Source of the DNA: Acidisoma cellulosilyticum
GTDB lineage: Bacteria; Pseudomonadota; Alphaproteobacteria; Acetobacterales; Acetobacteraceae
Direction of reading: 5' to 3'
NCBI RefSeq assembly: GCF_020621385.1
Contig: NZ_JAESVA010000004.1
Coordinates: forward strand, 186,001 to 250,000
Length of the DNA stretch: 64,000 nt
Of this stretch, positions 47,841 to 64,000 are shown one piece after another. A model generated the notes under the pieces. The model did no database searches, was not told where the DNA came from, and was given only the letters and a program-made list of their open reading frames with translations. Made by a program: the position numbers and the translations under genes. Position 1 is the first letter of the stretch; the number at the start of each line of letters is the position of its first letter.

Positions 47841-47904
47841 TTGCAAGTCGAAGGCGCGAATTCTTAAAGACGACAAGTGTTAGCAAAGGACTCCGTCAGC
47901 GCGG

Positions 47905-48264: not shown

Positions 48265-49010
48265 CCGCCGAAATTCGGCGGGGCGAGGCCGCGCTCAGCG
48301 AAATCAGCGGCCCTGCGAACATGGCGCATGCCCTCCTTCAGCGCGAAAGCGCCGTGGCCGGGCAGAAACATGTCAAAGGTGAGATTGGATAAGCGCCGAA
48401 CGGTGGCGATTGTCGCCGTGAAACTACAATCCGGAATGTCCTGCAGGAAGACCGTGCCGCCGGCGAAAAGCGCGTCCCCGGATACAAGCATTGTTTTGCC
48501 GCTCAGCGTCACGAGATAGGAACAGTGATCGGCGCTATGGCCCGGTGTTTTCAGCAGGCGGATCGATGCCTCTCCGATGTGGATGACGGCATCGTCGGCT
48601 AGGACAGTGTCGACAGTCGCGCCTTGCCAGCGATAGCTCTCAGGATAAACACCGAAGCGTCGCGCGGTATCGAGGCTGATGCGGGTTTCATCATGCGACT
48701 GCATGCGAGCGGCAGCCTCTTCACCGGCATACAGCGTGACGGGTCGCGAGAGCTGATCGAGGATCGGTGCGACGCCGCCCGAATGATCGGCATGCGCATG
48801 GGTCAGGAAAATATGCTTGATGTCGGCGGGATCGAGTCCGTTGGTGGTCAATTCCGCGAAGATGGAGGCGATATCGCGTCCGGCACCGGCATCAAACAGC
48901 ACCAGCCCGTCGCCAGTTTCGATCAGCCAGGCGTTGCAGTCAAATTTATCCGTCAATGAAAAACCTACATTGCCACTGGCAACAAGATGGATCTGCGGAG
49001 AGACACGCAT
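48261..49010 (-). CDS. MBL-fold metallo-hydrolase
   Basis: This 249-residue metallo-beta-lactamase-fold protein has the di-metal motif THAHADHSGG near residue 72, TPGHSADHCSYL near 157, GDALFAGG with its Asp and LPGHG near 217. No signal peptide is seen, so it acts in the cytoplasm. Members cleave thioesters, glyoxalase-type esters or lactones. The substrate is unknown. It is the first gene of a pair with YjbR and is divergent from the SDR-kinase-SIS operon. Confidence 0.85.
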   Translation of the reverse strand: MRVSPQIHLVASGNVGFSLTDKFDCNAWLIETGDGLVLFDAGAGRDIASIFAELTTNGLDPADIKHIFLTHAHADHSGGVAPILDQLSRPVTLYAGEEAAARMQSHDETRISLDTARRFGVYPESYRWQGATVDTVLADDAVIHIGEASIRLLKTPGHSADHCSYLVTLSGKTMLVSGDALFAGGTVFLQDIPDCSFTATIATVRRLSNLTFDMFLPGHGAFALKEGMRHVRRAADFAERGLAPPNFGG

Positions 49011-49138
49011 CGCTTATCCTTTCGATCCGCGGATACTGTCTTTGAAGTCTAGAAGAGCGGTCGCGATATGACAATCCGCCACTCTTTCAGGGTATCGTGG
49101 AAAGCGATAGCTTATGCATTGATCGATGGAGAGCGCGC

Positions 49139-49891
49139 GTGAAACTCAGCGGCAAGGTTGTGGTGGTGACGGGCGGCGCTTCGGGACAAGGCGAGGCCGC
49201 TTGCCGGCTATTCGTGTCCGAAGGCGCGTCCGTCGTTTTGGCCGATTGGAACGGCGAGGGCGCCGCGCGTGTGGCGGCTGAGATTGGTGCGGCCGCCTTT
49301 ACCGTCGATGTGTCGCAGGAAGATCAGGTTGCGGCGATGATCGCCTTTGCCTGTGAGCGTTTCGGCAAGTTGGATGTGCTCTTCAACAATGCCGGCGTCG
49401 GCTATAGTTCCAACGCCCGTTTCCGGATGGCGAGCATCGTCGATACGCCGGGCGATGCCTGGGATGCGATCCTCGGCATCAATCTCAAAGGCCAGGCGAT
49501 GGGTTGCAAATATGCCATTCCGCGCATGCTGGAAGCGGGTGGCGGTTCCATCATCAACAATGCCTCCATCATGGCCATTGCCGGCGTGCCGGGCGCGGAT
49601 GCCTATACCGCTGCCAAAGGCGGCGTCATCGCTTTGACGCGCACGCTGGCGGTGGAATGGGCGAGCCAGGGCATTCGCGTGAACTGCATCTGCCCCGGCA
49701 CGATCGAGACGCCGATGGTCGGTGCAATCACGACGGAGGCTGAGCGCGCCCGACTGGGCGAAAGCACACCGATGAAGCGTGTCGGCCAAGCGGAGGAGAT
49801 TGCGCGGGCCGCGCTGTTTCTGGCCTGCGCCGATAGCTCCTATGTCAACGGGGTCATGCTGCCGGTGGACGGAGGATGGTCTGCCCTGTGA
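49139..49891 (+). CDS. short-chain dehydrogenase/reductase
   Basis: This 250-residue classical SDR has VVVTGGASGQGEAACRLF (cofactor loop), NNAGVGYSS, a catalytic Ser before AYTAAKGG (YxxxK) and the C-terminal SYVNGVMLPVDGGW. The Asp after the second strand (VVLADWNG) favours NAD. I start it at GTG with GGAGAG five bases upstream. It probably oxidises a polyol to a ketose that the kinase encoded next phosphorylates. The kinase start overlaps its stop. Confidence 0.88.
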   Translation: MKLSGKVVVVTGGASGQGEAACRLFVSEGASVVLADWNGEGAARVAAEIGAAAFTVDVSQEDQVAAMIAFACERFGKLDVLFNNAGVGYSSNARFRMASIVDTPGDAWDAILGINLKGQAMGCKYAIPRMLEAGGGSIINNASIMAIAGVPGADAYTAAKGGVIALTRTLAVEWASQGIRVNCICPGTIETPMVGAITTEAERARLGESTPMKRVGQAEEIARAALFLACADSSYVNGVMLPVDGGWSAL

Positions 49892-51399
49892 CCACGTATC
49901 TTCTCGGCATCGATATCGGCACCTCCATCGTCAAGGCCGCTGTTTTCGACCGGGACGGGCAGGAGGTTGCATCCGCCACGCGGCAGACCATTGTCTTGTC
50001 GCCGCAACCGGCCTGGGCCGAGGCGGACCCGGCTGAGGTTTGGGCAGCCACATGCGATGTCATTGGTCGCGTGCTCGCGCGCGTGCCGACTGAAAGCATC
50101 GCCGCGATCGGTCTTTCCGGTGCCATGGTCGGCGCCTGGGTGGTCGATGAGCAAGGGCACGTCCTGCGTCCGGGCATTTTCTGGAGCGACGGACGGGCGC
50201 AGCCGCTGATCGACGCCATGATTGCGCAAGACCCTGCGCTGATGTCGCGCATCTTTGCCGAGTCCGGTTCCGCCATGCAGCAGGGTTGCACACTGCCGGT
50301 GCTGGCTCATCTGGCGCGGCATGAGCCGGAGATTTTGGCGCGGGCGGCAGCCGTCATCGGGGCGAAGGATTTCATTCGCGCGCAGCTGACGGGCAGGATC
50401 GCGACCGATATCGTGGAAGCGGCCGTGGCACCGGGCAATGCCCGAGCGCGGGGCCGTTCGCCGTCCCTGATCGCACTATTCGGTCTTCAGGATTGGGCGC
50501 ATCTTCTGCCCGAGCCGCAGGCCTGCGAGAGCATTGCCGGTTTTGTGACCGAGGCGGCAGCGCGTGCAACGGGACTAAGCGCAGGCACGCCCGTGGCGAT
50601 CGGCGCGGGTGATGTGGCAGCCAGCGTCATCGGCGCGGGGGGCTTGGCTGAGGGGGCGGCCGTCAGCATTCTCGGCACGACTTGCCTCAATGGCGTGGCG
50701 GTATCGGCGCCCGTTTTCACGCCACCCGATCTGGGCATTCTGTTCACGCTGCCGGGCGGGCTTTGGCTGCGCAGCATGGTCAATGTCGCGGGCACCGTGA
50801 ATATCGACTGGGCTTTGGCCGCGCTTTGCCCGGATTTTGTGGAGGCAAAGGATGCCTACGACCGGATGGCGGATATTGCCCGCCAATCGCCGCCCGGCGC
50901 GCAAGGTGCGGTGTATATTCCTTATCTCAGCGAGGTCGGCATCATCGCGCCTGTCTTGGCCCCTAGCGCCCGCGGCGGTTTCGCCGGGTTGACAGCGCGG
51001 CACCGCCGGCCCGATCTGCTGCGCGCCGTTTATGAAGGTGTGGCCTATGCCATTCGCGATTGCTTCGTGGCCACGGGGCTGGATTTCGGCACCGTGCGGC
51101 TGGTCGGCGGCGGTGCGCGCAGCGCCTTCTGGCGGCAGATGATCGCTGACGTGCTGAACCGCAGGGTGGAAGTGCCGATGGGCCAGGAATTCGGCGCCAA
51201 GGGTGCGGCCCTTCTCGCCGGCACGGCGATCGGCTGGTATCCCTCCATCCCGGAAGCGTCTGCGGCGTGCTGCCGTATTCTTCATCGTCATGACCCTGCG
51301 GGTGACGGGCGATATGAGCTGGGCTTTGCGCGATACCGGACCTATGCCGGTGCGCTGGCCGAGGCAAAGCCCCCGAACGAGCAAAGGCTTTTGTCATGA
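49888..51399 (+). CDS. FGGY-family sugar kinase
   Basis: This 503-residue kinase has the two FGGY domains: GIDIGTSIVKAAVFD at the N-terminus (phosphate loop), then LSGAMVGAWVVDEQG, GAGDVAASVIGAGGLAEG and the C-terminal LVGGGARSAFWRQMIADVLN. It is related to xylulose and L-xylulose/ribulose kinases. The GTG start overlaps the SDR stop (GTGA). An ATG 12 bases upstream has its GGAGG with no spacing and is less likely. It phosphorylates a ketose or polyol of unknown identity. Confidence 0.87.
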   Translation: MTTYLLGIDIGTSIVKAAVFDRDGQEVASATRQTIVLSPQPAWAEADPAEVWAATCDVIGRVLARVPTESIAAIGLSGAMVGAWVVDEQGHVLRPGIFWSDGRAQPLIDAMIAQDPALMSRIFAESGSAMQQGCTLPVLAHLARHEPEILARAAAVIGAKDFIRAQLTGRIATDIVEAAVAPGNARARGRSPSLIALFGLQDWAHLLPEPQACESIAGFVTEAAARATGLSAGTPVAIGAGDVAASVIGAGGLAEGAAVSILGTTCLNGVAVSAPVFTPPDLGILFTLPGGLWLRSMVNVAGTVNIDWALAALCPDFVEAKDAYDRMADIARQSPPGAQGAVYIPYLSEVGIIAPVLAPSARGGFAGLTARHRRPDLLRAVYEGVAYAIRDCFVATGLDFGTVRLVGGGARSAFWRQMIADVLNRRVEVPMGQEFGAKGAALLAGTAIGWYPSIPEASAACCRILHRHDPAGDGRYELGFARYRTYAGALAEAKPPNEQRLLS

Positions 51400-52127
51400 C
51401 CGAGGCTGCTTTCTCCTATCTCGCTCTGGCGGCCGATGCGCTGGCGACCTTGCATCAGGGTCAGGAAAATGCGTTCGACGCGGCGGCAGGCGCCATCACT
51501 CAGGCGCTTGTCGCGGATAGGTTGATCTATCTCTTCGGCACCGGCCATTCCCATATGCTGGCCGAGGAAGGGCATTATCGCGCGGGCGGCGTGGCGGCCG
51601 TGGTGCCGGTGCTGTCACCTGTGCTGATGCTGCATGAGGGTGCGGTGGAAAGCACCAGGCGCGAGCGGGAAACGGGCATCGCGGCAGAGGTTCTGAGCCG
51701 CTATCCGATCGCAGCCGGCGATGTGCTGATCATCTTTTCCAATAGCGGCGTCAATGCCGTGCCGGTGGAGGCGGCGGCCTATGGGCGCGATAAAGGCGCA
51801 GTCGTCATTGCCGTGACATCCGACGCCTATTCGAAAGCCGCCGCCGCCGGCCGTCCGAGGCTTTTCGACCTGGCCGATATCGCCATCGACAATCGCACGG
51901 TGCCGGGTGATGCAGGGTTTCAGGCCGCCGAGGGCCAGCCCAATGTCGGGCCGCTATCGACCGTGATTGGTGCGGCGATCCTGAACGCGCTGCTGGCGGA
52001 GGCTGTTGCGCGCATGGCGACACAGGGGCTGGAAGCGCCGATCTATGTCAGCGCCAATATGCCCGGCGCGAAAGAACGCAATGCCATGCTGGTCGCGCGC
52101 TATCAGACGCGCAACCAGCATCTGTAA
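51396..52127 (+). CDS. SIS-domain sugar isomerase
   Basis: This 243-residue SIS (sugar isomerase) domain protein of the DUF2529/UPF0309 type has YLFGTGHSHMLAEEGHYRAGG near residue 45 and IIFSNSGVNAVPVEAA near 110, both phosphosugar-binding segments. It follows the kinase with an ATGA overlap, so it probably isomerises or binds the kinase product. The three-gene set SDR, kinase and SIS forms a compact route from a polyol or sugar to a central phosphate ester. Confidence 0.84.
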   Translation: MTEAAFSYLALAADALATLHQGQENAFDAAAGAITQALVADRLIYLFGTGHSHMLAEEGHYRAGGVAAVVPVLSPVLMLHEGAVESTRRERETGIAAEVLSRYPIAAGDVLIIFSNSGVNAVPVEAAAYGRDKGAVVIAVTSDAYSKAAAAGRPRLFDLADIAIDNRTVPGDAGFQAAEGQPNVGPLSTVIGAAILNALLAEAVARMATQGLEAPIYVSANMPGAKERNAMLVARYQTRNQHL

Positions 52128-52149
52128 GTTTCTCAAGACCGCAAATCTT

Positions 52150-52175
52150 CCCATCAGGTGGAAACACCTGATGGG
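52150..52175. terminator. bidirectional terminator hairpin
   Basis: CCCATCAGGTG-GAAA-CACCTGATGGG is a perfect 11-bp stem with a GAAA tetraloop in the 56-base gap between convergent SIS and amine-oxidase genes. It lacks a clear T-run but is very stable and symmetric. Confidence 0.75.
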
Positions 52176-52183
52176 ATATGGCT

Positions 52184-54139
52184 TCAGGCGCAGCAGCTTT
52201 TCTTGTTGACGGCGGGGGGCAGGTCGATGACCGGGTTCTGATCGAAGAATCCCGAGGGCATCAGCTTGAACCCGCAGACGACGCAAGGCTGCACCGGATG
52301 ATCTTCCGGCCGCGTGATATGATGCAGGCCGAAACTATGCCAGAGCACGATATCGGTATTGTCGGTCGGCCGGTCTGCCTTGGTCCATTGCGGCAGACCT
52401 TCCGATCCGCCTTCCTTAGTGCTGGACTGGTTGACGAATTCACCGGCCGGATAGCGTTCTTCGGGATTATAGGCCGTCACCCATACCTGATGCTGAATGA
52501 AACGCCCACGCCGGCCGGAGGGGCTGTCGGGATGGGTATAGGCTTGCACGGCCGACATCGGCTCCAGCTTGAAGGCGGTCGGCTTGCCGACCCAGTTCTT
52601 CACCTCTGGGTTGGTGATGCGCCAATACCGGCTTTTTGCGAAATCCACGTCGCGTTGTGCCGCCAATTCGCTGATGAGAGGCTTTTCTTCCATCAGGAAA
52701 GCATTGCCGTAGGGGTTTTCGGGTCCGAGCGGCAGCGCACGGGTATCGCATTCCGTGACCGTGTTGTTCGGTCCGTCGACTTCCATATCCAGCCGCGCGC
52801 AGAAGATATGCTGATGGATGTGCCCGACGATTCCGGGCGCCACTTCCGTGCCGAATTTCCCGGGCTGACCCGGATGGCAGGCGGCGGTATTGATGATGCC
52901 CGTCGCCTTCATCTCATATTCGATGCGGCCATCCTGATGCAGATACCAGTATGAGGCATATTCGTAATTGCCAATGGTGGAGATGGACGAGATCACCAGC
53001 TTGCGGGCGCGACGGACATCCGTGCGTTCGGTACGCACGTCGAAATGTTTCCAGGCCAGGCCGGCATCTTCTTCATGCAGGCAGATTGCATTGGTGATGG
53101 TGCGCGGCGTGCCATAGACGGTCGGCACCACGGCATCGAAATAGTGGATGGTGCCGAGGCAATCGCAGCCGAGCGTCAGCGAATTCGCCATACGGCCGAA
53201 GCCGAGTTCACCGCTATCGAAAACATTCTTGCGGTAATGGCTGCGTTCCGGCGTGCCGTAAGGCACGACCATTTCGGCGATGGAGGCGCGATAGACGATC
53301 GGCCGACGCTCCCCGCCATGGGTATAGCCGATGCGATAGAGCACCAGCCCTTCGCGGCCGTTGAAGCCGACGCGGAAATCCCAGTTTTCCCAGGTCACCT
53401 TATGGCCTTCGACCTTGAAACCGGCGCCATCCGGCTGCACGACGTCAAGCGCGGAGGAGGGCGGACGGAATTCCGTCAGCAGTGCCGCGTCGTAATTGCG
53501 CGGCGTGCGCGGCACCGGGATGTAATCGCCCGATTCCGCGAAGTGATCGACGACTTCCAGCACTTCCAGCGTGCTGACATCGATCAGCGCATGCAGGCCT
53601 TCGACCGGATGGGCGTAGTAATTGTCGAGCGGGAAGGTGCGCATCCAGATGAAGCAATTGAGCACGCGGCGGCCTTGTTCGATCGCATGGCCGAAATCGC
53701 CGACCGTCCAAGGATCGACGGCCATGAATTCCAGATCGTCGATCAACCCGCGCTTGCGCAGAGCGTCCTGAAAGCGCGGATCGGCCTTCACGGTCTTCTC
53801 GATCTCGAACACTTCCTCGATCGCGACCATGGCGCGCGCGTCTTCGCGGAAGACCTGCGAGACCAGTTCGCCACTACCAAGATCGACCCGGCCAATGATG
53901 ACGCCCATGACGCCACGGCGATAGATATTGAAGCGCGCGATGCGGGGAAAGCTCGCGCCGTCCACATAATCCCGCACAAGATCCTTCGCCGGCTCGTCAA
54001 GATCGACGGTCTCGACACGCAGATCCGCGCCCCAGTCGAAATGCTTGACGATCAGCTCGGCCGCACGGGCAAGTTCCGCGCCTGAGAGCGGGTCGAGCGG
54101 ATGCAACGCCGCTCGCGTCTCAGTGACGATACTATCCAT
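52184..54139 (-). CDS. copper-containing primary amine oxidase
   Basis: This 651-residue enzyme oxidises primary amines to aldehydes with release of ammonia and hydrogen peroxide. The cofactor (TPQ) Tyr lies in the NYEY motif near residue 391. The catalytic-base Asp is in YFDAVVPTVYG. The copper ligands are the HQH pair and a His in the DIVLWHSFGLHH stretch. No signal peptide is seen, unlike many enteric tynA products, so it is probably cytosolic. The C-terminus ends in KKSCCA. It is the last gene of the operon with the amidase and could process the amine that the amidase releases. Confidence 0.92.
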   Translation of the reverse strand: MDSIVTETRAALHPLDPLSGAELARAAELIVKHFDWGADLRVETVDLDEPAKDLVRDYVDGASFPRIARFNIYRRGVMGVIIGRVDLGSGELVSQVFREDARAMVAIEEVFEIEKTVKADPRFQDALRKRGLIDDLEFMAVDPWTVGDFGHAIEQGRRVLNCFIWMRTFPLDNYYAHPVEGLHALIDVSTLEVLEVVDHFAESGDYIPVPRTPRNYDAALLTEFRPPSSALDVVQPDGAGFKVEGHKVTWENWDFRVGFNGREGLVLYRIGYTHGGERRPIVYRASIAEMVVPYGTPERSHYRKNVFDSGELGFGRMANSLTLGCDCLGTIHYFDAVVPTVYGTPRTITNAICLHEEDAGLAWKHFDVRTERTDVRRARKLVISSISTIGNYEYASYWYLHQDGRIEYEMKATGIINTAACHPGQPGKFGTEVAPGIVGHIHQHIFCARLDMEVDGPNNTVTECDTRALPLGPENPYGNAFLMEEKPLISELAAQRDVDFAKSRYWRITNPEVKNWVGKPTAFKLEPMSAVQAYTHPDSPSGRRGRFIQHQVWVTAYNPEERYPAGEFVNQSSTKEGGSEGLPQWTKADRPTDNTDIVLWHSFGLHHITRPEDHPVQPCVVCGFKLMPSGFFDQNPVIDLPPAVNKKSCCA

Positions 54140-54171
54140 GTGCCTTGCTCCTGTTCTGTCTGGTCGCCATC

Positions 54172-56400
54172 CTACACGAAAGGTTTCGGGTCCATGAAGC
54201 GCCGAAGTGCATTCAATGTGATTCGTGAGACATTGTTCTCGTAGTTGTTCCAGGGCAGCGAGCCGCACCAGGCGATGGAGCCGGTGGCAAAGACCGCGCC
54301 GCCAGCTGGCGTCTCATAAAAGCTGAGATCGGCGCGGACTTTTTCGTTCTGGTCCCCGCCCAGATTCGGCAGGGTGGCCGTGAATTCCTCATTCACCAAC
54401 AGCATCAAAGGACTGTGATCTTCCGAGGAGGCGAGGCGGAGGATATTGGGCGGCGAACCGAGCAGGCGATTGATGCAGTCCAGCTCGATACCGGCAGCAC
54501 CGCCGCCGATGAGACCGAAATCGCCGATAACCTCATCCTCCACCCCTTCGAAGACGAAGCTGGCGCGGGGGTTGTCCGCGTCCGGTGCGCGCCGATAGGG
54601 GCTGGAGACGTCGAAACCCTGCGCCACGAAGCCGATGCCGGCCATCATATTCGGCGGCCGCCCGCAGCGGCGCCAGAGCCCGCCATATTCGCCGGTGAAG
54701 GAGTGGTAGTATTCGCCGGGCTCGGCCTCCCAGGAGCGGATGCCGTCTTCCGCGCGGCGCACTTCAATGACGCCCGGCAGCTCGTCATGAAAGGCGATGC
54801 GCCAATACCAGCCATTGCCGCCCATATACATCAGGCGTCCGCCGCGATCGATCCAGGATTTCATCGCATCCCACATCGCCGTCGAATGGTATTCCGGATG
54901 CGAACCCGTGAGGATGACCTGATAATCCTCGATGAGCGGATAGCCGTCGCGATGCAGGTCCTCGTCGGTGATGATGTCATAGCCGATATCGTTATGCGCC
55001 AGCCAGCCGAACAGATGCGTATCGGCATTGTATTGGTACAAGCTTGAACCGTCACCGCCGAGCCAGGAATGGTAGCGCGGCGCGCAGTTGATATTGGGCC
55101 GCATGCGGCTGGAATAGCAGACGCCCGAGCCATCGGCATGCTTGTCATACAGCGAATGGCAGAGTTCAGGATGGTCGTAGAGATAGACATCCTGATGGCC
55201 GAAATGCAGCAGCCGTCCCATCAGACGTTCGACGCCCCGCACGGTGATATGCTCGCCATGATTGGCATAGGCCATATAGGAGCAGGTAGGGGCCAGGAAG
55301 GCGACTTTTGGCCGCGTAACGCCGGGTTTCTTGACGCGCGGCGGCCGGATGAAGAAGGGGATATAGCATTCCCGCATCGCCTCGGGCTCGGTCTCACCGC
55401 AGGTCACATGCAGCGCATAGGCGCCGCTTTTGGCATCCTCCGGCAATTGCCAGATGATATCGGCGGGCCAGCCGGCGTCGTACAGATCATCCTCATGGAA
55501 ATGCACGGCGCCATATTCGGCCGGTGCGGCCTGCCAGCTATGATGCACCCCGGTCCAGCCGCTGCCCTTCATGCCGCGGGCCGGCAGATTGACCAGACGA
55601 CCGTGATGGCGGAAGGCACTCTTATCGATCGCAGTGGTGCTGCAGATACCGTCGGAAAAATCCCAGGCGGCGATGAGCTTCGGGGCGATTGCCGCAGGCA
55701 GCGGATTGACCGCCAAAGTGGCATGGCTTTCTGCGCCGGCGACCAAAGTCGGGCCTTCGATCTTGCCGTTGAAATGGGCACCGATCGTGCCGTCCGCCAG
55801 CGGCGCGCCGGCGAGGATGAAGGGCGTGGCGGCGGCTATCGAGGGGCCGAGGCTGCCTGCGATCTCCCCCGCATCATCGACGCCGAAATCCTTCTGCAAG
55901 GGCGAGAGGGAGAGGCGGAAGGCGCCCGTCGCGGCCGTCAGGCTGAAGCTGACCGCATACCATTTCCGCTCCAGCAAGCTATGCGGCAGGGTCTGACGCA
56001 TACCGCCACCGGTGACGAGGGACAGCTTGCCCTCATCCAGTTCCAGCATGAAGCCGGTTTTGGCAGCCGCGTCCCATTGCGATGCGATGACCTGACCACG
56101 GCGGTCAAGCAGCGTCGGCCAGATTAGTGCGCGGAACGAAACATTGTCGAGCGGCGGTACGCTCTCGGCGATGAGGTAGGAGCCGGCATCCGCACGGCGC
56201 GGCTGACCCGGATAGGTGCCATCGACGCTGCTGGGATGATGCGGCAAATCGAGCCCCGGCCCGGCGGGATTGCAATCCCCGTTCAAGACACGGACGATTT
56301 TTGCGGAGAAGGCGTCGCCCTCTTCGAGCGAAATCTGGAAGGAAATCGCTTCACCGGGTGCGACGCTATAGCGGTCAGGATAGCCCAGAATCTTTAACAT
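54172..56400 (-). CDS. N,N-dimethylformamidase-like large (beta) subunit
   Basis: This 742-residue protein matches the DMFase large subunit family in length and order. It has an N-terminal beta domain with a LamG-like middle (residues 1-270), then a catalytic region with APTCSYMAYANHGEH, LTGSHPEYHS and GGRLMYMGGNGWYW. In known DMFase a mononuclear iron is held by two Tyr and one Glu. The conserved Tyr and the Glu of HPEY are candidates, but I cannot place all ligands. It hydrolyses an amide C-N bond to give an acid and an amine. The true substrate here is open. It follows the small-subunit gene by 22 bases. Confidence 0.83.
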   Translation of the reverse strand: MLKILGYPDRYSVAPGEAISFQISLEEGDAFSAKIVRVLNGDCNPAGPGLDLPHHPSSVDGTYPGQPRRADAGSYLIAESVPPLDNVSFRALIWPTLLDRRGQVIASQWDAAAKTGFMLELDEGKLSLVTGGGMRQTLPHSLLERKWYAVSFSLTAATGAFRLSLSPLQKDFGVDDAGEIAGSLGPSIAAATPFILAGAPLADGTIGAHFNGKIEGPTLVAGAESHATLAVNPLPAAIAPKLIAAWDFSDGICSTTAIDKSAFRHHGRLVNLPARGMKGSGWTGVHHSWQAAPAEYGAVHFHEDDLYDAGWPADIIWQLPEDAKSGAYALHVTCGETEPEAMRECYIPFFIRPPRVKKPGVTRPKVAFLAPTCSYMAYANHGEHITVRGVERLMGRLLHFGHQDVYLYDHPELCHSLYDKHADGSGVCYSSRMRPNINCAPRYHSWLGGDGSSLYQYNADTHLFGWLAHNDIGYDIITDEDLHRDGYPLIEDYQVILTGSHPEYHSTAMWDAMKSWIDRGGRLMYMGGNGWYWRIAFHDELPGVIEVRRAEDGIRSWEAEPGEYYHSFTGEYGGLWRRCGRPPNMMAGIGFVAQGFDVSSPYRRAPDADNPRASFVFEGVEDEVIGDFGLIGGGAAGIELDCINRLLGSPPNILRLASSEDHSPLMLLVNEEFTATLPNLGGDQNEKVRADLSFYETPAGGAVFATGSIAWCGSLPWNNYENNVSRITLNALRRFMDPKPFV

Positions 56401-56422
56401 GATGTCTTGTCCCCGCTCGCGA

Positions 56423-56752
56423 TCAGACTTCGTCGGCGCTTCTGAAAGGCTGGTTCAGATGCTGGCCCGTGGCCTTGAACCAACGCCTGCGGAAAATCTC
56501 CCACTCCGCCTCATCTCGATTGGTGAAGATCGGGCTGTCCTCGAAGACCAGCGGATCAAGCCGGTTGGCGGGCATTTCCGCGATCTGCCATTCCGCAAAG
56601 GGCTTGCGGCAGAACAGCACAATCTGCTTGCCACTCGGGTCATAGCGCAGCGTGTTCAGGACGCGCATCAATCCGGGGCTGTGCCGCCCCACCGGCTGGC
56701 GCCGGAACTCCTCGACATATTGCTGATCCATCTCAGGATTGATGCGGTACAT
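56423..56752 (-). CDS. DMFase-like small (alpha) subunit
   Basis: This 109-residue protein has a sequence pattern of the DMFase small subunit: NPEMDQQYVEEFRRQPVGRHS, then RVLNTLRYDP and EWEIFRRRWFKATGQ. It is shorter than the known subunit of about 130 residues. It lies nine bases after the ATPase gene and directly before the large-subunit gene, as in described dmfA1-A2 pairs. In those enzymes the small subunit stabilises the heterotetramer. Identification rests on context and pattern together. Confidence 0.75.
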   Translation of the reverse strand: MYRINPEMDQQYVEEFRRQPVGRHSPGLMRVLNTLRYDPSGKQIVLFCRKPFAEWQIAEMPANRLDPLVFEDSPIFTNRDEAEWEIFRRRWFKATGQHLNQPFRSADEV

Positions 56753-56761
56753 GATCGCCCT

Positions 56762-57838
56762 CTATGCGGGGGAGGATGAAACAGCGATACGGCGGCCGTC
56801 GGCGCCGAAAAAGAAACACGCCCCTGCTTCCGGCGCAATGCCAAGCCGGTCGCCGATGCGGGCGTGAAATCCGGGATCGACCAGCGCGCGGAGTTTGTTG
56901 CCTGTAGCGTCATCGCCGATCACAACGGATTCGCGGCCCAGATGTTCCAGCGCATAGACGGTGACAGGAATGGCGCCCGGCGCGTCAGGCGCCGTGACGG
57001 TCACATGCTGCGGCCGTACGCCGAGGCTGACTGGTCCATTGGGAATGCCGCGCCCCGCGAGGTCGATCGCCACAGGTCCAGCATGGAAGACGCCGTTTGA
57101 TATGGCGCCGGCAACGACATTCATCGGCGGCGAGCCCAGAAAGGTCGCGACGAAAAGGCTGGCCGGCTGATTGTAGATTTCGTCAGGCGTGCCGATCTGT
57201 TCCAGATTGCCCTTCGACATGACGGCGATACGGTCACCCATCGTCATCGCCTCGACCTGATCATGGGTCACGAAGACGGCCGTGGTGCCCAGGCGTTTCT
57301 GCAGATTGACGAGTTCCGAGCGGAGCGAGAGCCGCAGGGCGGCATCCAGCGCCGAAAGCGGCTCATCCAACAGAAAGCACGCGGGTTCGCGGACGATGGC
57401 CTTGGCCGTCGCTGCGCGCTGCCGCTGGCCGCCGGACATCTGGCTCGGCAGCTTATCCAGCATCGGCTCCAATTCCAGCATACGCGCGGCATCCGCGATA
57501 CGCTGCGCGCGTTCAGCCTTGGAGAGTTTGCTGTGCCGCAGACTGGCTTCGATATTCTTGCGGACGGTCAGATGCGGGTAAAGCAGCGAGGACTGAAAGA
57601 CCATGGCGACATTACGCCCATGCGGCGGCTCGGCCGTTACGTCGCGGCCGTCGAACAGGATCTGTCCCTGGGACGGATAGTCCAGCCCCGCGATCATGTT
57701 CAGGGTCGTGGTCTTGCCGCAGCCGGACGGGCCGAGCATGACGAGGAATTCACCGTCAATGATGTCAAGATCCAAATTCTCGACAGCCACGTAGCGGTCA
57801 TAGGATTTGCGGATTTGCCGCAGTTCGATCTTTGCCAT
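56762..57838 (-). CDS. ABC transporter ATP-binding protein (UgpC/MalK type)
   Basis: This 358-residue single cassette has Walker A GPSGCGKTT (residue 36 region), signature MSGGQRQRA, Walker B FLLDEPLSALDA, the switch His in VFVTHDQVEA and a C-terminal TOBE/OB regulatory domain (from about 240). It powers the two permeases encoded before it. The MalK-like tail may respond to regulatory proteins. It is inside the amide/amine operon, between permease and amidase genes. Confidence 0.9.
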   Translation of the reverse strand: MAKIELRQIRKSYDRYVAVENLDLDIIDGEFLVMLGPSGCGKTTTLNMIAGLDYPSQGQILFDGRDVTAEPPHGRNVAMVFQSSLLYPHLTVRKNIEASLRHSKLSKAERAQRIADAARMLELEPMLDKLPSQMSGGQRQRAATAKAIVREPACFLLDEPLSALDAALRLSLRSELVNLQKRLGTTAVFVTHDQVEAMTMGDRIAVMSKGNLEQIGTPDEIYNQPASLFVATFLGSPPMNVVAGAISNGVFHAGPVAIDLAGRGIPNGPVSLGVRPQHVTVTAPDAPGAIPVTVYALEHLGRESVVIGDDATGNKLRALVDPGFHARIGDRLGIAPEAGACFFFGADGRRIAVSSSPA

Positions 57839-57876
57839 TCAGACAAGGGCTCCAAACGGGGCGGTGTTGGTCATCG

Positions 57877-58737
57877 TCAACGAACCGGATCAGCGATGTT
57901 CATCTCAGCCAGATGACGCTGCAGGAAGAAAGCGACCAGCGCGGGCGGGATGATGGTGATGAGAATGCAGGCGGCGAGCTGGGCCGGGTTCGGGTCCTGG
58001 CCAAGGAAGCCGGAAATCGCGGCAGGCAGGGTTGTTGCGGGGGTGCCGTTCACCAACACCAGGGCAAAGGTGAACTCGTTCCAGGCAAACAGAAAGGCGA
58101 TGATGGCTGAAACCGCAACGCCGCTGCGTGCGAGGGGAAGAATGAGAAAAAGCAGCGTATGCAGCCGGCTGAAACCGTCGATCCGTGCCAGCCGTTCGAT
58201 CGGCGGCAGATTGCGGAAATAGCCGATCAGCATCCAGGTGACGAAGGGCACCGTGGTCGTCAGGTCAATGATGATCAGTCCCGGCAAGGTGCCTACCAGC
58301 CCAAGCTGAACATATAGCGTATAGAATGGGATGAGGGTGGAGACCGGCGGAATGGCGACGGCCAGTAGCACGGCGTTGAGCAGAACATTCTTGAAGCGGA
58401 AGTCGAGCCGGGCAAAGACATAGGCGAGAGGCACGACGATGATGATCGTGATCAGCGTCACCGCGGCCGAGACGATGATGCTGTTCTGTAGCCCAAGTTC
58501 GATCTGACCGGCCTGACCAGAGGCCGCAGAGATGCTACCGTCCGCGAGCTTGTAGTCGTAGCCAAAGATATTGACGAAGGACGACAGGTTGAAGCTGGAC
58601 GGAAAGATATGCGGCGGGAAATTGGCGATTTCGGCGTGGTTCATGAAGGCCATGCGCACGAACCACAGGATCGGTAGCAGCGACCAGATGATCAGGACCG
58701 TCATGGCAATGACGAAATTGGGGCGGCGCTTCGTCAT
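57877..58737 (-). CDS. ABC permease, MalG-type
   Basis: This 286-residue six-helix permease of the MalG/UgpE type has the cytosolic coupling loop ERLARIDGFSRLHTLLFLILPLA (EAA-like). Its start overlaps the partner permease by four bases. It delivers the substrate bound by the upstream binding protein. Confidence 0.88.
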   Translation of the reverse strand: MTKRRPNFVIAMTVLIIWSLLPILWFVRMAFMNHAEIANFPPHIFPSSFNLSSFVNIFGYDYKLADGSISAASGQAGQIELGLQNSIIVSAAVTLITIIIVVPLAYVFARLDFRFKNVLLNAVLLAVAIPPVSTLIPFYTLYVQLGLVGTLPGLIIIDLTTTVPFVTWMLIGYFRNLPPIERLARIDGFSRLHTLLFLILPLARSGVAVSAIIAFLFAWNEFTFALVLVNGTPATTLPAAISGFLGQDPNPAQLAACILITIIPPALVAFFLQRHLAEMNIADPVR

Positions 58738-59648
58738 ATCTGCTTCTCCCGCCTTCCCCAGATCAGATAAAGGCTCATGGTCAAGCCGATGATAAAGAGG
58801 AGCAGGAAAAAGGACATGGCAGCGCCATAGCCGAGATTGAGGTTAATGAAACTCACCTTGTAGAGCTGATAGGTGAGGGTGGAGGATGCGTCACCAGGGC
58901 CGCCGGCTGACAGGACGAAGATGAGGTCGAACAGCTTCATCGACAGCACGGTGGCGATCGAGGTGAAGACAAACAGCGTGAAGCGCAGCGGCGGCAGCGT
59001 GACGTTCCAGAAGGTCTCCAGCGGTGTCAGTTGGTCGATCGCCGCGAGATCGTACAGCCGCTTCGGAATGGTCTTGAGATTGGCAAGCACGAAGAAGCCG
59101 ACGAGCGGCGCCATGGTCCATGAACTGCCGATAGCGAGCACCTCGACAATGGTGCGCGTCGTCATGAAGTCCGGCACATTCTGCATGCCGAGATGGGCCA
59201 GGATCGCGGTCGGCAGCCCGGTCTGGCCACGGGCGAGATAGGCAAACATCAGCCCCGCGCCATAGAGGGAAACGCACCAGGGCAAAAACACCAGCGTGCG
59301 CCACACCCCGCCGAACCGGGTCGGCCGGTTGAGCAGAAGACCTATGGCAAGGCCGAGCAGCATGGTCAGGATCACGCTTTCCACCGTGAAGCGGATCGTG
59401 ACCCAGGTACACCACCAGAATTCGGGATCGTTGAGCACCGTCGCGAAATTCTTGAAACCGACGAATTTCGTGCGATAGCCGCCGAAGAACAGGATGCGAT
59501 GAAAAGCCATCCAGGCAGAATAGGCTAGCGGATAGGCGACGATCACGATGAGTAGAAGAATGACCGGCAGGCCGATCATCAGCGCAAACTGGCCGTCGGT
59601 CAGCTCTCGGCGGCGAGCCTTGGCTTTCTGAGGTGCGATCGTCGCCAT
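58734..59648 (-). CDS. ABC permease, MalF-type
   Basis: This 304-residue six-helix permease of the MalF/UgpA type has a coupling loop at YDLAAIDQLTPLETFWNVTLPP. It starts seven bases after the binding-protein gene ends. With the next gene it forms the membrane channel. Carbohydrate-type (CUT1) importers of this class also carry glycerol-phosphate, choline-like and opine-like compounds. Confidence 0.88.
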   Translation of the reverse strand: MATIAPQKAKARRRELTDGQFALMIGLPVILLLIVIVAYPLAYSAWMAFHRILFFGGYRTKFVGFKNFATVLNDPEFWWCTWVTIRFTVESVILTMLLGLAIGLLLNRPTRFGGVWRTLVFLPWCVSLYGAGLMFAYLARGQTGLPTAILAHLGMQNVPDFMTTRTIVEVLAIGSSWTMAPLVGFFVLANLKTIPKRLYDLAAIDQLTPLETFWNVTLPPLRFTLFVFTSIATVLSMKLFDLIFVLSAGGPGDASSTLTYQLYKVSFINLNLGYGAAMSFFLLLFIIGLTMSLYLIWGRREKQI

Positions 59649-59655
59649 GCCGGTG

Positions 59656-60999
59656 TCAGATCCCGTATTTGTCGTTCAGACTGTCGATCTGATCGTTCAT
59701 GCTTTTGATGGTATCTGCGATATCACCGTCGTTGAGCAGGAACTTGGACAAGGTATCCTTCAGGAACGAATTGAATTCCTCCGACCAGACCACGCGCCAG
59801 ATGCCGACGGGGAAGGGCGTTTGCTTATAGACGTCGAGCAGAACCTCATAATCACCCGGCCGGGCGACGGCCTTCTTGATACGCGCTTCCGTGGCCGGCG
59901 AATTCATGACCGATTTATAGGCGGAGAACAGCATATGCGTGTCCATCCAGCGGTCTGCCACGAAGGTCTTGCCGTCGCCGTCCTTGAAGCCGTACCAAGA
60001 CGCGAATTTTTTCACGTCGTCGGTCTGGGCTTCCGGGCGTTTGCGGTTCGTCATCAGATAGAGCGCGGAATCGATCAGACCCCAAGTCTGCTTGACGATC
60101 GGCAGAATGGTGACATGGCCGGCGATCTGGCTGCGACCCGGGGTGTTCATGGTCTGCACGTCATAGATCTGCTGCGGGCTGAACACGTAGCGGCCGGAGG
60201 CGAAGGCATCGATATAGGCGGATTCGTTATAGGTTAGCACTTCCTGCGGGACGAGCTTGGATTTCCAGAGCTTTTTCCATTGCGCGAGGGTCTTATAGGC
60301 CGGCCCGTTCGGATCGACCGTCATGGTCGGCTTATGCGTCGTGGGATCCGCGACCGGATTGCCGCGATTGAGCACTTCCATGACGAAACCCCAGGAAATG
60401 CCGTACCAGTCACCGAACCAATGCGGCAGAATGGGCGTCGCGACACCCTTGTCATGCAGCGCATAGATCTGATCGTAAAGCGCGTCCCAATCCGCCGGAA
60501 AATCCTTATCCGTCATTCCGGCCTTGTTATAGGCAAGAAGATTGGTGTGGACGCATCCGCGCGTGCTGGCGAAATAGGACAGGCCGAGCAATTTGCCGTC
60601 ATAGGACCAGGCGTCCAGAAATTGCGGCAGCATATCGGCCTTGATCTCGGCGGCCGCCGGCAGGGTCTCAGCCGGAAGCACCCAACCACCTTCGTAATAA
60701 CGCACGGCGGTTGAAGGATTGGCGTAGAGCACGTCCAGATCCGCTTTGGCGATCAGGCTTTGTTCCATGATGGCAGGATAGTCGCCGGTCACGGTCGCAT
60801 AATCGATCTTGCCGTGCTCCAAGTCATTGTATCGTTTCACATTGGACTGGACGACTTCCGGTGCAAATTGCCAGCCCCGGAAATACACGGGCTTGCCGCT
60901 GGCGGCCTCTAGGTCTGCGACGGAAGCAAAAGCACGCCCGAAGGGTGCGGCAGCAAGCCCCAAGGCCGCTGCCAGAGTTCCGAATTCACGACGTTTCAT
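59656..60999 (-). CDS. extracellular solute-binding protein (ABC, type 1)
   Basis: This 447-residue SBP_bac_1/8-type protein has a Tat-like leader (MKRREFGTLAAALGLAAAPFGRA, cleavage near residue 26). The mature part starts SVADLEAASGKPVYFRGW. It is the first gene after a sigma-54 promoter whose -12 GC lies about 110 bases upstream of the ATG. It determines what the importer carries; the fold is shared by sugar, polyamine and phosphonate binders, so substrate assignment must rest on the linked amidase and amine oxidase. Confidence 0.87.
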   Translation of the reverse strand: MKRREFGTLAAALGLAAAPFGRAFASVADLEAASGKPVYFRGWQFAPEVVQSNVKRYNDLEHGKIDYATVTGDYPAIMEQSLIAKADLDVLYANPSTAVRYYEGGWVLPAETLPAAAEIKADMLPQFLDAWSYDGKLLGLSYFASTRGCVHTNLLAYNKAGMTDKDFPADWDALYDQIYALHDKGVATPILPHWFGDWYGISWGFVMEVLNRGNPVADPTTHKPTMTVDPNGPAYKTLAQWKKLWKSKLVPQEVLTYNESAYIDAFASGRYVFSPQQIYDVQTMNTPGRSQIAGHVTILPIVKQTWGLIDSALYLMTNRKRPEAQTDDVKKFASWYGFKDGDGKTFVADRWMDTHMLFSAYKSVMNSPATEARIKKAVARPGDYEVLLDVYKQTPFPVGIWRVVWSEEFNSFLKDTLSKFLLNDGDIADTIKSMNDQIDSLNDKYGI

Positions 61000-61106
61000 T
61001 GATGACCTTCGACTTTCTGAATGTGAGGGCGATGGAGGCGTTGGGCATCCCGGCCGGTCATCCGGATAGACAAAGCAATTTTCTGGAATGGTCTACAAAT
61101 ATATAA

Positions 61107-61122
61107 AGCAAATCCTGTGCCA
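61107..61122 (-). promoter_or_regulatory. sigma-54 promoter (-24/-12)
   Basis: The minus strand reads TGGCACAGGATTTGCT, a full match to the RpoN consensus TGGCACR-N4-TTGCW, with the GG and GC elements exactly ten bases apart. Transcription would start near 61097, about 98 bases before the binding-protein ATG. Sigma-54 promoters need an enhancer-binding activator such as NtrC. No RpoN activator gene is in view. Confidence 0.75.
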
Positions 61123-61191
61123 GATTGGACGAAAAACCGAGCCGGAGTTCAGTTGTTATCAGTCAGCAACATCAGCCTGCAGAGAGTGCCG

Positions 61192-62136
61192 TCAGGCAAA
61201 GGCGTCGAGACCCGCACCACAGACGAGCGCGCAGATGCGCGTGCCCGGTGCGACGGAGATCTGCCCGGATAGAAGGGCAGCCGCGGCGGCCGCACCGCTG
61301 GCATCAGCGGCGAGACCGAATTCAAACCAAAGCCAACGTGCGGCATCGAACATTGCCGCGTCCTCAAGAAGAATGACGTCATCGACATTCTTCCGAACGA
61401 TGTCGAAAATGCCGGGATCCGTGCGGGCACAGGCCATGGTCGGCACGGTTGTGGTGACGGCATCGAGCTTGACGACGGAACCTTGTTCCAGGCTCGCATA
61501 GAGCGTGGGCGATCCCACGGGTTCGATGCCTATGATACGGGCATTCGGATGCAGCGCGCGCAATACCGTCGACATGCCGGCAATTAACCCGCCGCCGCCG
61601 ATTGCGATCAGAAAAAGATCGATGTCAGGCGCTTGTTCCAGAATTTCGAGTGCGACGGTACCTTGGCCGGCGACGATGGCCGGGCTGGCGAAAGGATGGA
61701 AATAGGGCAGGCCCGAACCTTCTGCAAAAGCCATGGCCGCTTCATGGGCTTCATCCCAGTAACGACCGATGAGATGGATGGTGGCACCCCAGGATTTCAG
61801 CTTCTCCTGCTTCGCCAATGCCGCATTTTCGGGCAAAAAAACGGTCGACGGCACGCCGGCGACATAAGCGGCACGCGCAACCGCGATACCGTGATTGCCG
61901 CCTGAGGCGGTGACGATTCCGCGTGCAACGGCGTCCGGCGGCAAAGACAGCAATTGATTGATCGCGCCGCGCGCTTTGAAGGAGCCGGTGACCTGCAGGG
62001 ATTCGAGTTTCAGCAAGAGCGAGGCGCCGTCCGGCAAGGGCGACCGCTGCGCGAGGCTCGCGTCCATCAAGGGCGTGCGACGTACATAGCCTTTGATGCG
62101 ATCGGCCGCCGTGCGAACGTCGTCCAGCGTGATCAT
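61192..62136 (-). CDS. threonine dehydratase-like PLP lyase
   Basis: This 314-residue fold-type II PLP enzyme has the Schiff-base Lys54 in GSFKARGA and the phosphate loop IGGGGLIAG. ASGGNHGIAVARAA is the substrate loop. There is no C-terminal ACT domain, so it is not feedback-controlled like biosynthetic IlvA and resembles catabolic TdcB or serine/threo-3-hydroxyaspartate dehydratases. Its ATG overlaps the GMC stop (ATGA). It releases ammonia from a hydroxy-amino acid, in keeping with the nitrogen theme. Confidence 0.87.
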   Translation of the reverse strand: MITLDDVRTAADRIKGYVRRTPLMDASLAQRSPLPDGASLLLKLESLQVTGSFKARGAINQLLSLPPDAVARGIVTASGGNHGIAVARAAYVAGVPSTVFLPENAALAKQEKLKSWGATIHLIGRYWDEAHEAAMAFAEGSGLPYFHPFASPAIVAGQGTVALEILEQAPDIDLFLIAIGGGGLIAGMSTVLRALHPNARIIGIEPVGSPTLYASLEQGSVVKLDAVTTTVPTMACARTDPGIFDIVRKNVDDVILLEDAAMFDAARWLWFEFGLAADASGAAAAAALLSGQISVAPGTRICALVCGAGLDAFA

Positions 62137-63731
62137 GCGGCGCCTGCCAGGAAAGCATCGGCCAATTTTTCGCCAATCATGATCGTCGTGAAATTGGTAT
62201 TGGCCTTGCAGTCGCGCGGCATGATGGAGGCGTCGATGACGCGCAAACCCTGCATGCCATGCACGCGGCCAAGTGTATCCACGACGCTGAAGTTTTCGCC
62301 GGCCCTGCCCATGACGCAACCGCCCGCGCCATGCTGCGCATCATTGCAATCGGTCATCAGCCAGTCATCGACCTGATCATCGGAGGCGGTGAGCAGTTCC
62401 GCCAGCGGCAAGCCCGTATTGCCCATCTGAATGTCACGGCAAATCGCACGTGTGGACGGGTGATTGGCGACGAGGGCCAGATGCCGCGCACCGGCCCGCA
62501 TGCGCGCGAGGTCGAAAGGATCGCTCATCATATTCTCGTCGATCTCAGGCTGCACACGCGGATCGGCGGACAGCGCGCGGACAGTGCCGCGACTTCTGCA
62601 TTCGTAGAGCATGACATGCATCCCGGCCTCGCCGAATTGGGACATGTCCTGATCGACACCGATGCCGCCGTGATTGAAGGAGGCGAGCAGCATATCCTGC
62701 TTCGCGGCGCCGGGCAGGCCGGAGCTGAACTTCACGCAGCAATTGGTGTGGCGCGTGTCCAGACCCTTCGCGCGGAATTCCGGCTTAAGCTTGAGTTCGA
62801 TGCGCACGAAAGGATGATCGAAGAAACCCTGACCGACCGGCAGATCATGCACCTGCGCGATCCCGGCTTCGCCTAGCCAATCGGCCGGGCCGATGCCGGA
62901 GCGGTGCAGAATGGCGGGCGAATGAATGGCGCCGGCAGAGAGAATGACATCCGGCGCAAAGAGGTCTTGCGCGCCCTCGGGAAGGATGACGCGTACGCCG
63001 ATGGCAACCAGCCCATCCAGCAGCACGCGGTCGACCAGAGCATCGCCGATGATGGTGAGGTTGGGGCGCCCGCGCGCAGGTTCCAGATAGGCGTCATTGG
63101 TGGAGACACGCTTCTGGTCACGACTATTGATCGCGAAACAGCAGACACCTTCTGCGGCGGGCGCATTGAGATCATCACACCAGGGATGGCCGAGACCCAT
63201 GGCGGCGTCGCGCAAGGCAAGATCGACCGGGCCCCAGGTCTCGACCGGCGCGCGATAGACGGGGATCGGTCCGCTGCTGCCGTGATAGGGGTAATTGCCG
63301 AGCGTCAGGTCATCTTCGAGTTTTTTGAAATAGGGCAGCACGTCGTCAGACGACCAGCCGGCGCAGCCATATTCTGCCCATTCGTCGAAAGCATCGAGCA
63401 CGCCGCGGATGGCGATCTGACCATTGACCGCCGTGCTGCCGCCGACGCCCTTGCCACGCCAGTACAGACGCGGCTCCTGACGATGCGTTCTGCGCGCCAT
63501 CAGGTCATCGAACATGAACTGCTTCTGAAAGTGTTCCGGCAGCAGCAGGTTGAAAGGATTGGGGCTGGCCATTTCCGGCGGCTGTTCGGCGCTGCGGTAA
63601 TTGGGGCCGGCATCCAGCAACAGCACTCGGCGGCTTCTATCGGCGGAGAGACGGTTGGCCAAAACCGCACCGGCCGCACCTGCTCCCACGATGATGACGT
63701 CGAACTGGCTTCCGGGCGCAGGCGGGTTCAT
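62133..63731 (-). CDS. GMC-family FAD alcohol oxidoreductase
   Basis: This 532-residue flavoprotein has the N-terminal FAD motif VIIVGAGAAGAVLANRLS, GMC signature GVGGSTAVNGQIAIRG and the C-terminal active-site region HGAGGCVMG and ANTNFTTIMIG. It is of the choline dehydrogenase/alcohol dehydrogenase type and oxidises a primary alcohol to an aldehyde. The ATG has GAGGA eight bases upstream; a TTG six bases earlier is also in frame. It is co-transcribed with the M20 hydrolase and the PLP lyase. Confidence 0.88.
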   Translation of the reverse strand: MNPPAPGSQFDVIIVGAGAAGAVLANRLSADRSRRVLLLDAGPNYRSAEQPPEMASPNPFNLLLPEHFQKQFMFDDLMARRTHRQEPRLYWRGKGVGGSTAVNGQIAIRGVLDAFDEWAEYGCAGWSSDDVLPYFKKLEDDLTLGNYPYHGSSGPIPVYRAPVETWGPVDLALRDAAMGLGHPWCDDLNAPAAEGVCCFAINSRDQKRVSTNDAYLEPARGRPNLTIIGDALVDRVLLDGLVAIGVRVILPEGAQDLFAPDVILSAGAIHSPAILHRSGIGPADWLGEAGIAQVHDLPVGQGFFDHPFVRIELKLKPEFRAKGLDTRHTNCCVKFSSGLPGAAKQDMLLASFNHGGIGVDQDMSQFGEAGMHVMLYECRSRGTVRALSADPRVQPEIDENMMSDPFDLARMRAGARHLALVANHPSTRAICRDIQMGNTGLPLAELLTASDDQVDDWLMTDCNDAQHGAGGCVMGRAGENFSVVDTLGRVHGMQGLRVIDASIMPRDCKANTNFTTIMIGEKLADAFLAGAA

Positions 63732-63742
63732 GTCCAAGGTCC

Positions 63743-64000
63743 TCAGGAACGTTTGAAGGTGCGGGCGATATCTTCGATCATGCGGGCGGCGCGGGTGACA
63801 TCGGCGATCGCGACGAACTCGTCGACCGCATGGGCCTGAGCGATGCTGCCGGGGCCAAAGACGATGGTCGGCACCCCGACATCCGTCATCTTGGTGGCAT
63901 CCGAGCCGTAAGCGACGCCCACCGGCGTATCGTCGAGCCCTTCGGCGCGGCAGACGGCGCGGGCGGCCTGGATGATCGGGTCATCGGCATTTTCGATCGC
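63743..64000 (-). CDS. M20-family peptidase/deacylase, C-terminal part
   Basis: Only the last 85 codons are present; the start is beyond the right edge. The segment has the conserved C-terminal region of ArgE/DapE/carboxypeptidase G2-type M20 hydrolases: YGSDATKMTDVGVPTIVFGPGSIAQAHAVDEFV, in which the His of QAHA is a metal-site His. It would cleave an N-acyl amino acid or amide. It ends 11 bases before the GMC gene start and shares its direction. Confidence 0.8.
   Translation of the reverse strand, partial: AIENADDPIIQAARAVCRAEGLDDTPVGVAYGSDATKMTDVGVPTIVFGPGSIAQAHAVDEFVAIADVTRAARMIEDIARTFKRS

Follow-up and report, generated by a model that had tools for sequence, protein, structure and literature searches.

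The window analysed here is a stretch of 64,000 nucleotides from the 6.0-Mb genome of Acidisoma cellulosilyticum (contig NZ_JAESVA010000004.1, our C4, positions 186001–250000). Its last part carries, on the minus strand, a CUT1-type ABC importer followed directly by the two subunits of an amidase of the dimethylformamidase (DMFase) type and by a copper amine oxidase (CuAO). With middling confidence, we read these genes as serving the import-coupled breakdown of a carbohydrate-like N-acyl compound of the polyol or amino-sugar type. The genes of this strand were as follows, given by window position.

52184–54139, minus strand: CuAO of the topaquinone (TPQ) type, 651 aa (PF01179, E 7e-155; PF02728; PF02727; PRK11504 subfamily/NCBIfam primary-amine oxidase, above cut-off)
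54172–56400, minus strand: DMFase-type beta (large) subunit, 742 aa (PF20254, 312.8 bits; cut-off 27)
56423–56752, minus strand: DMFase-type alpha (small) subunit, 109 aa (a profile of 15 relatives reached 6lvb_B, E 4.8e-9)
56762–57838, minus strand: MalK/UgpC-type importer ATPase (PF00005, TOBE_2, OB_MalK)
57877–58737, minus strand: CUT1 permease, MalG type (PF00528; best NCBIfam model MalG, under cut-off)
58734–59648, minus strand: CUT1 permease, UgpA type (PF00528; best NCBIfam model UgpA, under cut-off)
59656–60999, minus strand: CUT1 solute-binding protein (SBP) (PF01547; AlphaFold2 model)
61192–62139, minus strand: PALP, a pyridoxal phosphate (PLP)-dependent lyase resembling serine/threonine dehydratases (PF00291, E 1.6e-74; best NCBIfam model PRK08246, under cut-off)
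62133–63737, minus strand: GMC-family alcohol oxidase/dehydrogenase (PF00732, PF05199)
63743–64000, minus strand: 3′ end of an M20 (ArgE/DapE-like) deacylase (best NCBIfam model acetylornithine deacetylase, under cut-off)

The order of transcription is aldehyde dehydrogenase (ALDH), M20, GMC, PALP and then, after a gap of 192 bp, SBP, UgpA-type permease, MalG-type permease, ATPase, alpha, beta, and CuAO. Most of the M20 gene lies beyond the window end, where it runs to 64942 and encodes 399 aa when complete (L002:4743-5942); it is preceded in transcription by the ALDH gene, with an IclR regulator divergent upstream. Since the six intergenic gaps from SBP to CuAO (7, −4, 38, 9, 22, and 32 bp) do not exceed 38 bp, it is well supported that these seven genes form one operon. 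The 192-bp gap sets the upstream ALDH-M20-GMC-PALP block apart from them, and its inclusion in the same operon is plausible. A first-pass annotation, made from the letters alone, had described the importer, both amidase subunits, and the CuAO in direct succession, with an M20 deacylase, a GMC oxidase, and a PLP lyase upstream on the same strand, as a single nitrogen operon. All of these genes were present as described, the M20 gene with only its 3′ end in the window, and the single operon stood for the seven genes, the upstream block being a plausible extension. Scans for promoters and terminators in 60950–61250 and 52080–52250 found nothing, which carries little weight for organisms with other promoters. 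The open reading frame (ORF) of the CuAO, as listed from a GTG at 54268, overlaps the beta gene, and we took the gene as 52184–54139, from the ATG homologous to the start in Acidisoma silvae (L003). This species, the nearest named relative at the locus, whose isolate came from decaying wood according to the available part of PMC8537097, has the same gene order with protein identities of 86–96%. A third Acidisoma genome (L034) largely repeats the order but lacks PALP and ALDH.

The best PDB match of the beta subunit was 8huy (E 4e-147), deposited as an N-acetyl-(R)-beta-phenylalanine acylase, followed by the Paracoccus DMFase 6lvb (E 2.8e-137). According to the available part of PMC7686228, the iron of DMFase is held by Y399, Y440, and E521, while H519 is essential and N547 belongs to the active site. 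The equivalents in the window protein were Y378, Y418, E503, H501, and N529, respectively. Across 64 aligned family members, including the acylase and DMFase, Y378, Y418, H501, and N529 were kept in every sequence and E503 in 63. For the alpha subunit, Pfam gave no hit and a single-sequence search of the PDB no meaningful match; after 6lvb_B, all further PDB matches of the 15-member profile had E values of 0.016 or worse. An alpha ORF stood before beta in all 11 fetched loci of the clade described below. The window enzyme therefore has the two co-encoded subunits and the iron site of DMFase, but it did not group with the genetically confirmed DMFase.

This grouping comes from a thorough maximum-likelihood tree built from 59 beta proteins, from which L054 and the second copies L042_2, L069_2, L069_3, and L092_2 were left out. 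The window protein fell in a 12-member clade (bootstrap 100, SH-aLRT 100) comprising four loci of its own genus (window, L003, L005, L034), Arboricoccus pini (L004), three Labrys, an unclassified proteobacterium, Mangrovicoccus, a Rhodobacteraceae metagenome-assembled genome, and a further genome of the window's family (L036). Both the solved acylase, which forms a long branch, and the confirmed DMFase lay outside, so the window protein groups with neither. L054, 57% identical over a fragment, was considered as a member and rejected because it falls outside the clade. The residues D71, R388, H402, H444, and F673 were invariant inside the clade and occurred in less than 5% of proteins outside; the three basic ones may reflect a different substrate pocket. 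The amidase of Arboricoccus pini, a host labelled Geminicoccaceae, sits inside the group of the window's genus, and horizontal transfer is therefore likely for it.

The importer has the full composition of a CUT1 system, with an SBP_bac_1-type SBP, two BPD_transp_1 permeases, and a MalK-type ATPase with a TOBE domain. Orthologs of the SBP (E 1e-60 or better) were found in 4 of 147 related genomes, the source genome included, each 1.5–3.3 kb from the amidase, and in a class-wide sample of 385 genomes only in the source genome. The N-terminus of the SBP contains KRREFG, which we take to resemble a twin-arginine (Tat) signal. The best AlphaFold2 model of the SBP, from a 14-row alignment with distant SBPs, reached a pLDDT of 82.9; an earlier model from six rows that were 58–90% identical to the window protein was poor (41.9). 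The best of the 50 PDB matches listed from 1480 was MalE3 (6dtq, E 2.2e-19), and those listed included binders of maltose, trehalose, sulfoquinovosyl glycerol, and oligosaccharides. The SBP thus models as a member of the CUT1 class of sugar and glycoside binders.

The CuAO aligned over 576 residues with the phenylethylamine oxidase of Arthrobacter (1av4), and the motifs NYE, HQH, FD, and H were present and aligned. We take the Tyr of NYE to be the one that forms TPQ and the others to supply the three copper His and the catalytic Asp, so that the protein has the residues expected of a CuAO. Genes of this type (E 1e-100 or better) occurred at 22 places in 16 of the 147 related genomes, and seven of these places had a DMFase-type beta gene no more than 10 kb away, against 0.095 pairs expected under uniform scatter. 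The seven represent two lineages, four with a locus of the window type and three (L077, L078, L079) with a different operon; a further pairing, found separately, is on an Ensifer plasmid. In the window, L003, and L034, the CuAO gene lies directly behind beta, and in L036 behind the importer ATPase. Because the pairing recurs with two unrelated importers, it gives independent support to the logic of cutting an amide and then oxidizing the amine. Within the amidase clade, the CuAO was found at only these four of the 12 loci, which marks it as one lineage's accessory; six of the eight other loci (L005–L010) were read with 10 kb on either side. Other CuAO copies, in the source genome (L088, C4:363000-382900) and in L083, have CUT1-type permeases and ROK proteins as neighbors, and the fetched stretches showed no amidase, which hints at direct import of sugar-like amines.

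A run of carbohydrate genes on the plus strand converges on the CuAO gene and ends 56 bp from its stop (49097–52127). These genes, on which the first-pass annotation was silent, and the gene adjoining them were as follows.

51396–52127, plus strand: SIS-domain phosphosugar enzyme (PF13580; PRK02947, above cut-off; PDB matches 3cvj and NagS 9eol)
49876–51399, plus strand: FGGY carbohydrate kinase, xylulokinase-like (PF00370/PF02782)
49097–49891, plus strand: SDR dehydrogenase in the same run (PF13561; kept in L003 and L034)
48261–49010, minus strand: metallo-beta-lactamase-fold hydrolase adjoining the SDR gene (PF00753; kept in L003 and L034)

Beside this run, positions 42929–48519 hold an HpcH/HpaI aldolase, an ABC ATPase, a BPD_transp_2 permease, and a LacI regulator, and two further ORFs scanned there had no Pfam match. 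Orthologs of the FGGY kinase (68% identity or more) occurred in three of the 147 relatives, the source genome included, all of one genus and always at this locus, while three paralogs at 42–43% identity lay elsewhere in three genomes. According to the available part of PMC12680351, NagS is a GlcNAc-6-phosphate dehydratase, and three tested homologs of 26–36% identity were inactive. By eye, eight of nine NagS residues (H53, S54, R64, S91, E94, S119, S121, D179, and N228) were kept in the window enzyme, with T in place of S91, a degree of likeness to be read with those inactive homologs in mind.

Neighbor genes were counted at the 11 other clade loci and at 39 loci outside the clade, a set that excludes L075–L079 and L091–L095, which were fetched later. 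The reference proteins for FGGY, HAD, DeoR, and BtpA were taken from the window, L008, and L007, so that L008 and L007 match by construction. FGGY was found at 8 of 11 clade loci and none of 39 outside, DeoR at 7 and none, HAD at 6 and one, and BtpA at 5 and none. Counting the window, at least one of these four was present at 11 of the 12 clade loci, the exception being L005. The SBP gave 5/11 versus 2/39 (the outside two at 23% identity), the CuAO 3/11 versus 0/39, PALP and M20 each 3/11 versus 1/39, GMC 3/11 versus 0/39 (with an additional fragment in L004, cut by the contig end), SIS 2/11 versus 0/39, and ALDH 2/11 versus 1/39. Two loci were short, L011 with 6.6 kb and L004, which ends 0.4 kb past beta, and absences there mean little. 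At the Labrys loci, the scanned proteins included no deaminating partner.

Taken together, the sugar-binder fold of the modelled SBP, the xylulokinase-like FGGY kinase, and the SIS/NagS family point to a carbohydrate-like amide as the substrate class. In the proposed pathway, the CUT1 importer would take up the N-acyl compound, as its fold and gene linkage suggest, and the alpha/beta amidase, whose iron-site residues are in place, would split the amide, releasing the acid and the amine. Any product with a CH2-NH2 group would be converted by the CuAO to an aldehyde, ammonia, and H2O2, in line with the chemistry of that enzyme family. The GMC oxidase and ALDH may then turn an alcohol end into an acid, the M20 enzyme may take off a second acyl group, and the PLP lyase may deaminate a serine- or threonine-like product. 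Through the convergent SDR, FGGY, and SIS enzymes, the carbon skeleton would enter the pool of sugar phosphates. The core of this scheme, made up of uptake, hydrolysis, and oxidation, has the better support; we infer in what order the later steps follow and that sugar phosphates are the outlet.

The same core had been put forward by the first-pass annotation, and it is supported by an SBP found only beside the amidase and by the CuAO pairing in two operon designs, with the restriction that the CuAO belongs to the module in one lineage of the clade. That annotation had also argued that dimethylformamide (DMF) was an unlikely substrate, since dimethylamine is not a primary amine. The conclusion stands on clade position, importer, and operon content, and we rejected DMF as the main substrate on the first two of these. 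It also agrees with a related dmfA1-dmfA2 locus of Paracoccus aminophilus for which no link to DMF use was found in the available part of PMC4543880. The argument itself is weakened by the preference of DMFase for N-methylformamide, with a kcat/Km of 6166.7 versus 256.5 for DMF (available part of PMC7686228). The claim of an undescribed primary-amine amide was not supported as worded, because amides of primary amines are already substrates of DMFase in that same source and 8huy is deposited as an N-acyl acylase; "undescribed" is fair for the substrate, not for the reaction class. Use of hydroxyectoine was also considered and rejected, as PALP reaches EutB models only far under the cut-off and the partner genes were not seen.

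Several observations weigh against a carbohydrate-like substrate and a common module. The remaining four SBP models had pLDDT values of 56.5–59.7, and because four of five were thus under 60 the model was used for class only; similarly, the listed fold neighbors were 12–17% identical to the SBP, which shows the class and not the ligand. Eight of the 12 clade loci have no CuAO, and in L005 (Acidisoma sp. L85) all the counted partners are absent beside alpha and beta. The FGGY/SIS/SDR genes are on the opposite strand and are possibly an unrelated neighbor kept by synteny in one genus. The FGGY subfamilies differ as well, the Labrys type being 31% identical to the window kinase and 32% to that of L036, so no single sugar pathway is common to the clade, and the carbon skeleton may differ between hosts. 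Finally, sugar genes also occur near amidases of another clade: L078 has a weak FGGY and a HAD about 8.5–9.7 kb from beta, and in L093 an FGGY is annotated at a distance of about 7 kb.

The amidase might instead act as an acylase on N-acylated beta- or beta-hydroxy amino acids, with the PLP lyase as main partner deaminating the product and the CuAO as a lineage-specific extra for a side product. The name of the nearest solved relative fits this, as do the PALP orthologs in the window, L003, L004, and L036, the PALP directly after an amidase of another clade in L047, a DSD1-type PLP enzyme by the amidase in A. larrymoorei, and a D-ser_dehydrat PLP protein near that of Mangrovicoccus. PLP aminotransferases were also present at 6 of the 11 outside-clade loci scanned (L037, L038, L040, L049, L051, and L057), adjoining alpha or beta in four, with genes between in L049 and L057. 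The importer, however, is of the sugar type and not of the peptide or amino-acid type, the window protein lies outside the acylase's clade, and PALP is present at only four of the 12 clade loci. As such an enzyme would also leave unexplained both the CuAO at the end of the run and the phosphosugar genes, we consider this explanation unlikely, if worth keeping in view.

A simple small amide, such as an N-alkyl formamide or acetamide and up to DMF itself, would give the CuAO methylamine or ethylamine to oxidize and make the sugar genes unrelated. The kcat/Km of DMFase is higher on N-methyl- and N-ethylformamide than on DMF, with primary amines as products (available part of PMC7686228), and the PDB entry 1a2v, a CuAO from the same fold family, carries the name methylamine oxidase. 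Small amides, however, should not require a high-affinity sugar-type importer, and at the confirmed DMFase locus the 11 kb shown have no annotated importer; the window protein belongs to a clade other than that of DMFase, and no formamidase or formate gene is among the annotated genes of the run. This makes a small amide very improbable. It is likewise improbable, to a slightly lesser degree, that two functionally separate units, an importer-amidase operon and an amine or sugar operon, have stayed together in the genus by chance and horizontal transfer. The 192-bp gap, the opposite strand of FGGY/SIS/SDR, the restriction of the CuAO to four clade loci, and the divergent importer and amidase genes in L004 and L036 would agree with two units, whereas the position of the CuAO gene right behind beta or the importer ATPase and the repeated CuAO-amidase pairing in another clade with another importer speak against them. 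The import-coupled system for a carbohydrate-like N-acyl compound was consequently kept as the preferred reading.

The second operon design, that of L077–L079, has the order CuAO, binding protein, two ATPases, permease, LivM-alpha, and beta. Pfam confirmed a Peripla_BP_6 binding protein and the two permeases for L077 and only the LivM-alpha frame for L078 and L079, the remaining genes being assigned by size, order, and ATPase hits. Here, a DMFase-type alpha subunit is joined to a LivM permease in a single open frame directly before beta (L077:11045-12586, L078:7768-9309, L079:8188-9717, and plasmids L091–L095). The fusion was present in all 26 rhizobial plasmid records found, each with 97–100% query cover, and in one of the 385 genomes of the class sample. 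The eight frames examined had 509–553 codons with no stop between the two parts, and the alpha profile matched them at E 3.8e-15 to 1.3e-19. At the junction, seven of the eight have a Met after a purine-rich stretch, while L095 has a Met a few codons earlier; this internal Met suggests that such genes could yield free alpha besides the fused form. A CuAO gene lay near four of the eight (L077–L079 and L095), three of which had been fetched because of it, and the stretches fetched for L091–L094 showed none. Because the genetically confirmed DMFase of pAMI2 was the sister of the permease-fusion clade (100/100), DMFase may derive from an importer-linked amidase.

DMFase-type genes are widespread in the Alphaproteobacteria, occurring in 38 of the 147 related genomes and, at E 1e-100, in 62 of the 385 of the class. 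Neighbors were scanned at 11 of the 39 outside-clade loci, which is a choice and not a census. Besides the aminotransferases, these included a phosphoglucose isomerase (L039), an M81 peptidase (L052), and a DUF427 protein (L072). Outside-clade amidases also had binding proteins of the NMT1 type (L035) and the peptide type (L046) beside them, and PLP lyases in L047 and L076, the latter also with a peptide-type importer. Cutting an amide and then deaminating the product thus fits the logic of the first-pass annotation beyond the window locus. The L035 locus, a second DMFase-type pair with its NMT1/THI5-like binding protein, lies in a genome of the same genus (G003:C1:299371-301512) and represents another importer class. 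Among the papers listed by literature searches on dimethylformamidase and CuAO gene clusters, with partial coverage, none had a title that dealt with an operon or a fusion of this kind.

To our knowledge, few DMFase-type genes have an assigned substrate. As DMF has existed only since 1893 (available part of PMC7686228), the natural purpose of DMFase, with its unusual iron site, is a question in itself. A tentative and somewhat doubtful reading joins these observations: DMFase-type iron amidases would be the cutting part of several importer classes and not primarily solvent degraders, cutting at or just behind the membrane and deaminating the product. The fused alpha would dock the amidase on the transporter, true DMFase would be a spin-off of this fused branch that has shed its importer, and the window branch would cut a new sugar-like amide. 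The locus gives the DMFase family a natural context, in which the ligand of the private importer would name the substrate and the CuAO the amine, and the permease-amidase fusion is a possible origin for DMFase.

Compared with known systems, the importer shares its SBP fold, two permeases, and MalK-type ATPase with CUT1 sugar importers of the MalEFGK and UgpABCE types, although its SBP had no PDB sequence match at E 0.01. The CuAO is a full-length match of the Arthrobacter phenylethylamine oxidase and yeast methylamine oxidase type with TPQ and copper motifs in common, but it sits in an operon with an importer and an amidase. The 8huy acylase, which the whole beta subunit matches best in the PDB, shows by its deposited name that the fold can cut N-acyl primary amines; it belongs to another clade, and its entry names one molecule, with no alpha subunit listed. 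The Paracoccus DMFase DmfA1/DmfA2 (6lvb, pAMI2) has in common with the window the alpha and beta subunits, the PF20254-type large subunit, and the Tyr/Tyr/Glu iron site with His and Asn, yet the window beta is 37% identical to the pAMI2 protein and forms a separate clade, and the 11 kb shown around the pAMI2 genes contain a LuxR regulator with neither importer nor CuAO. The HAAT-type systems of L077–L079 and the rhizobial plasmids likewise combine an importer with a DMFase-type amidase, but they use an unrelated importer class, have alpha fused to the permease, and form the sister group of true DMFase.

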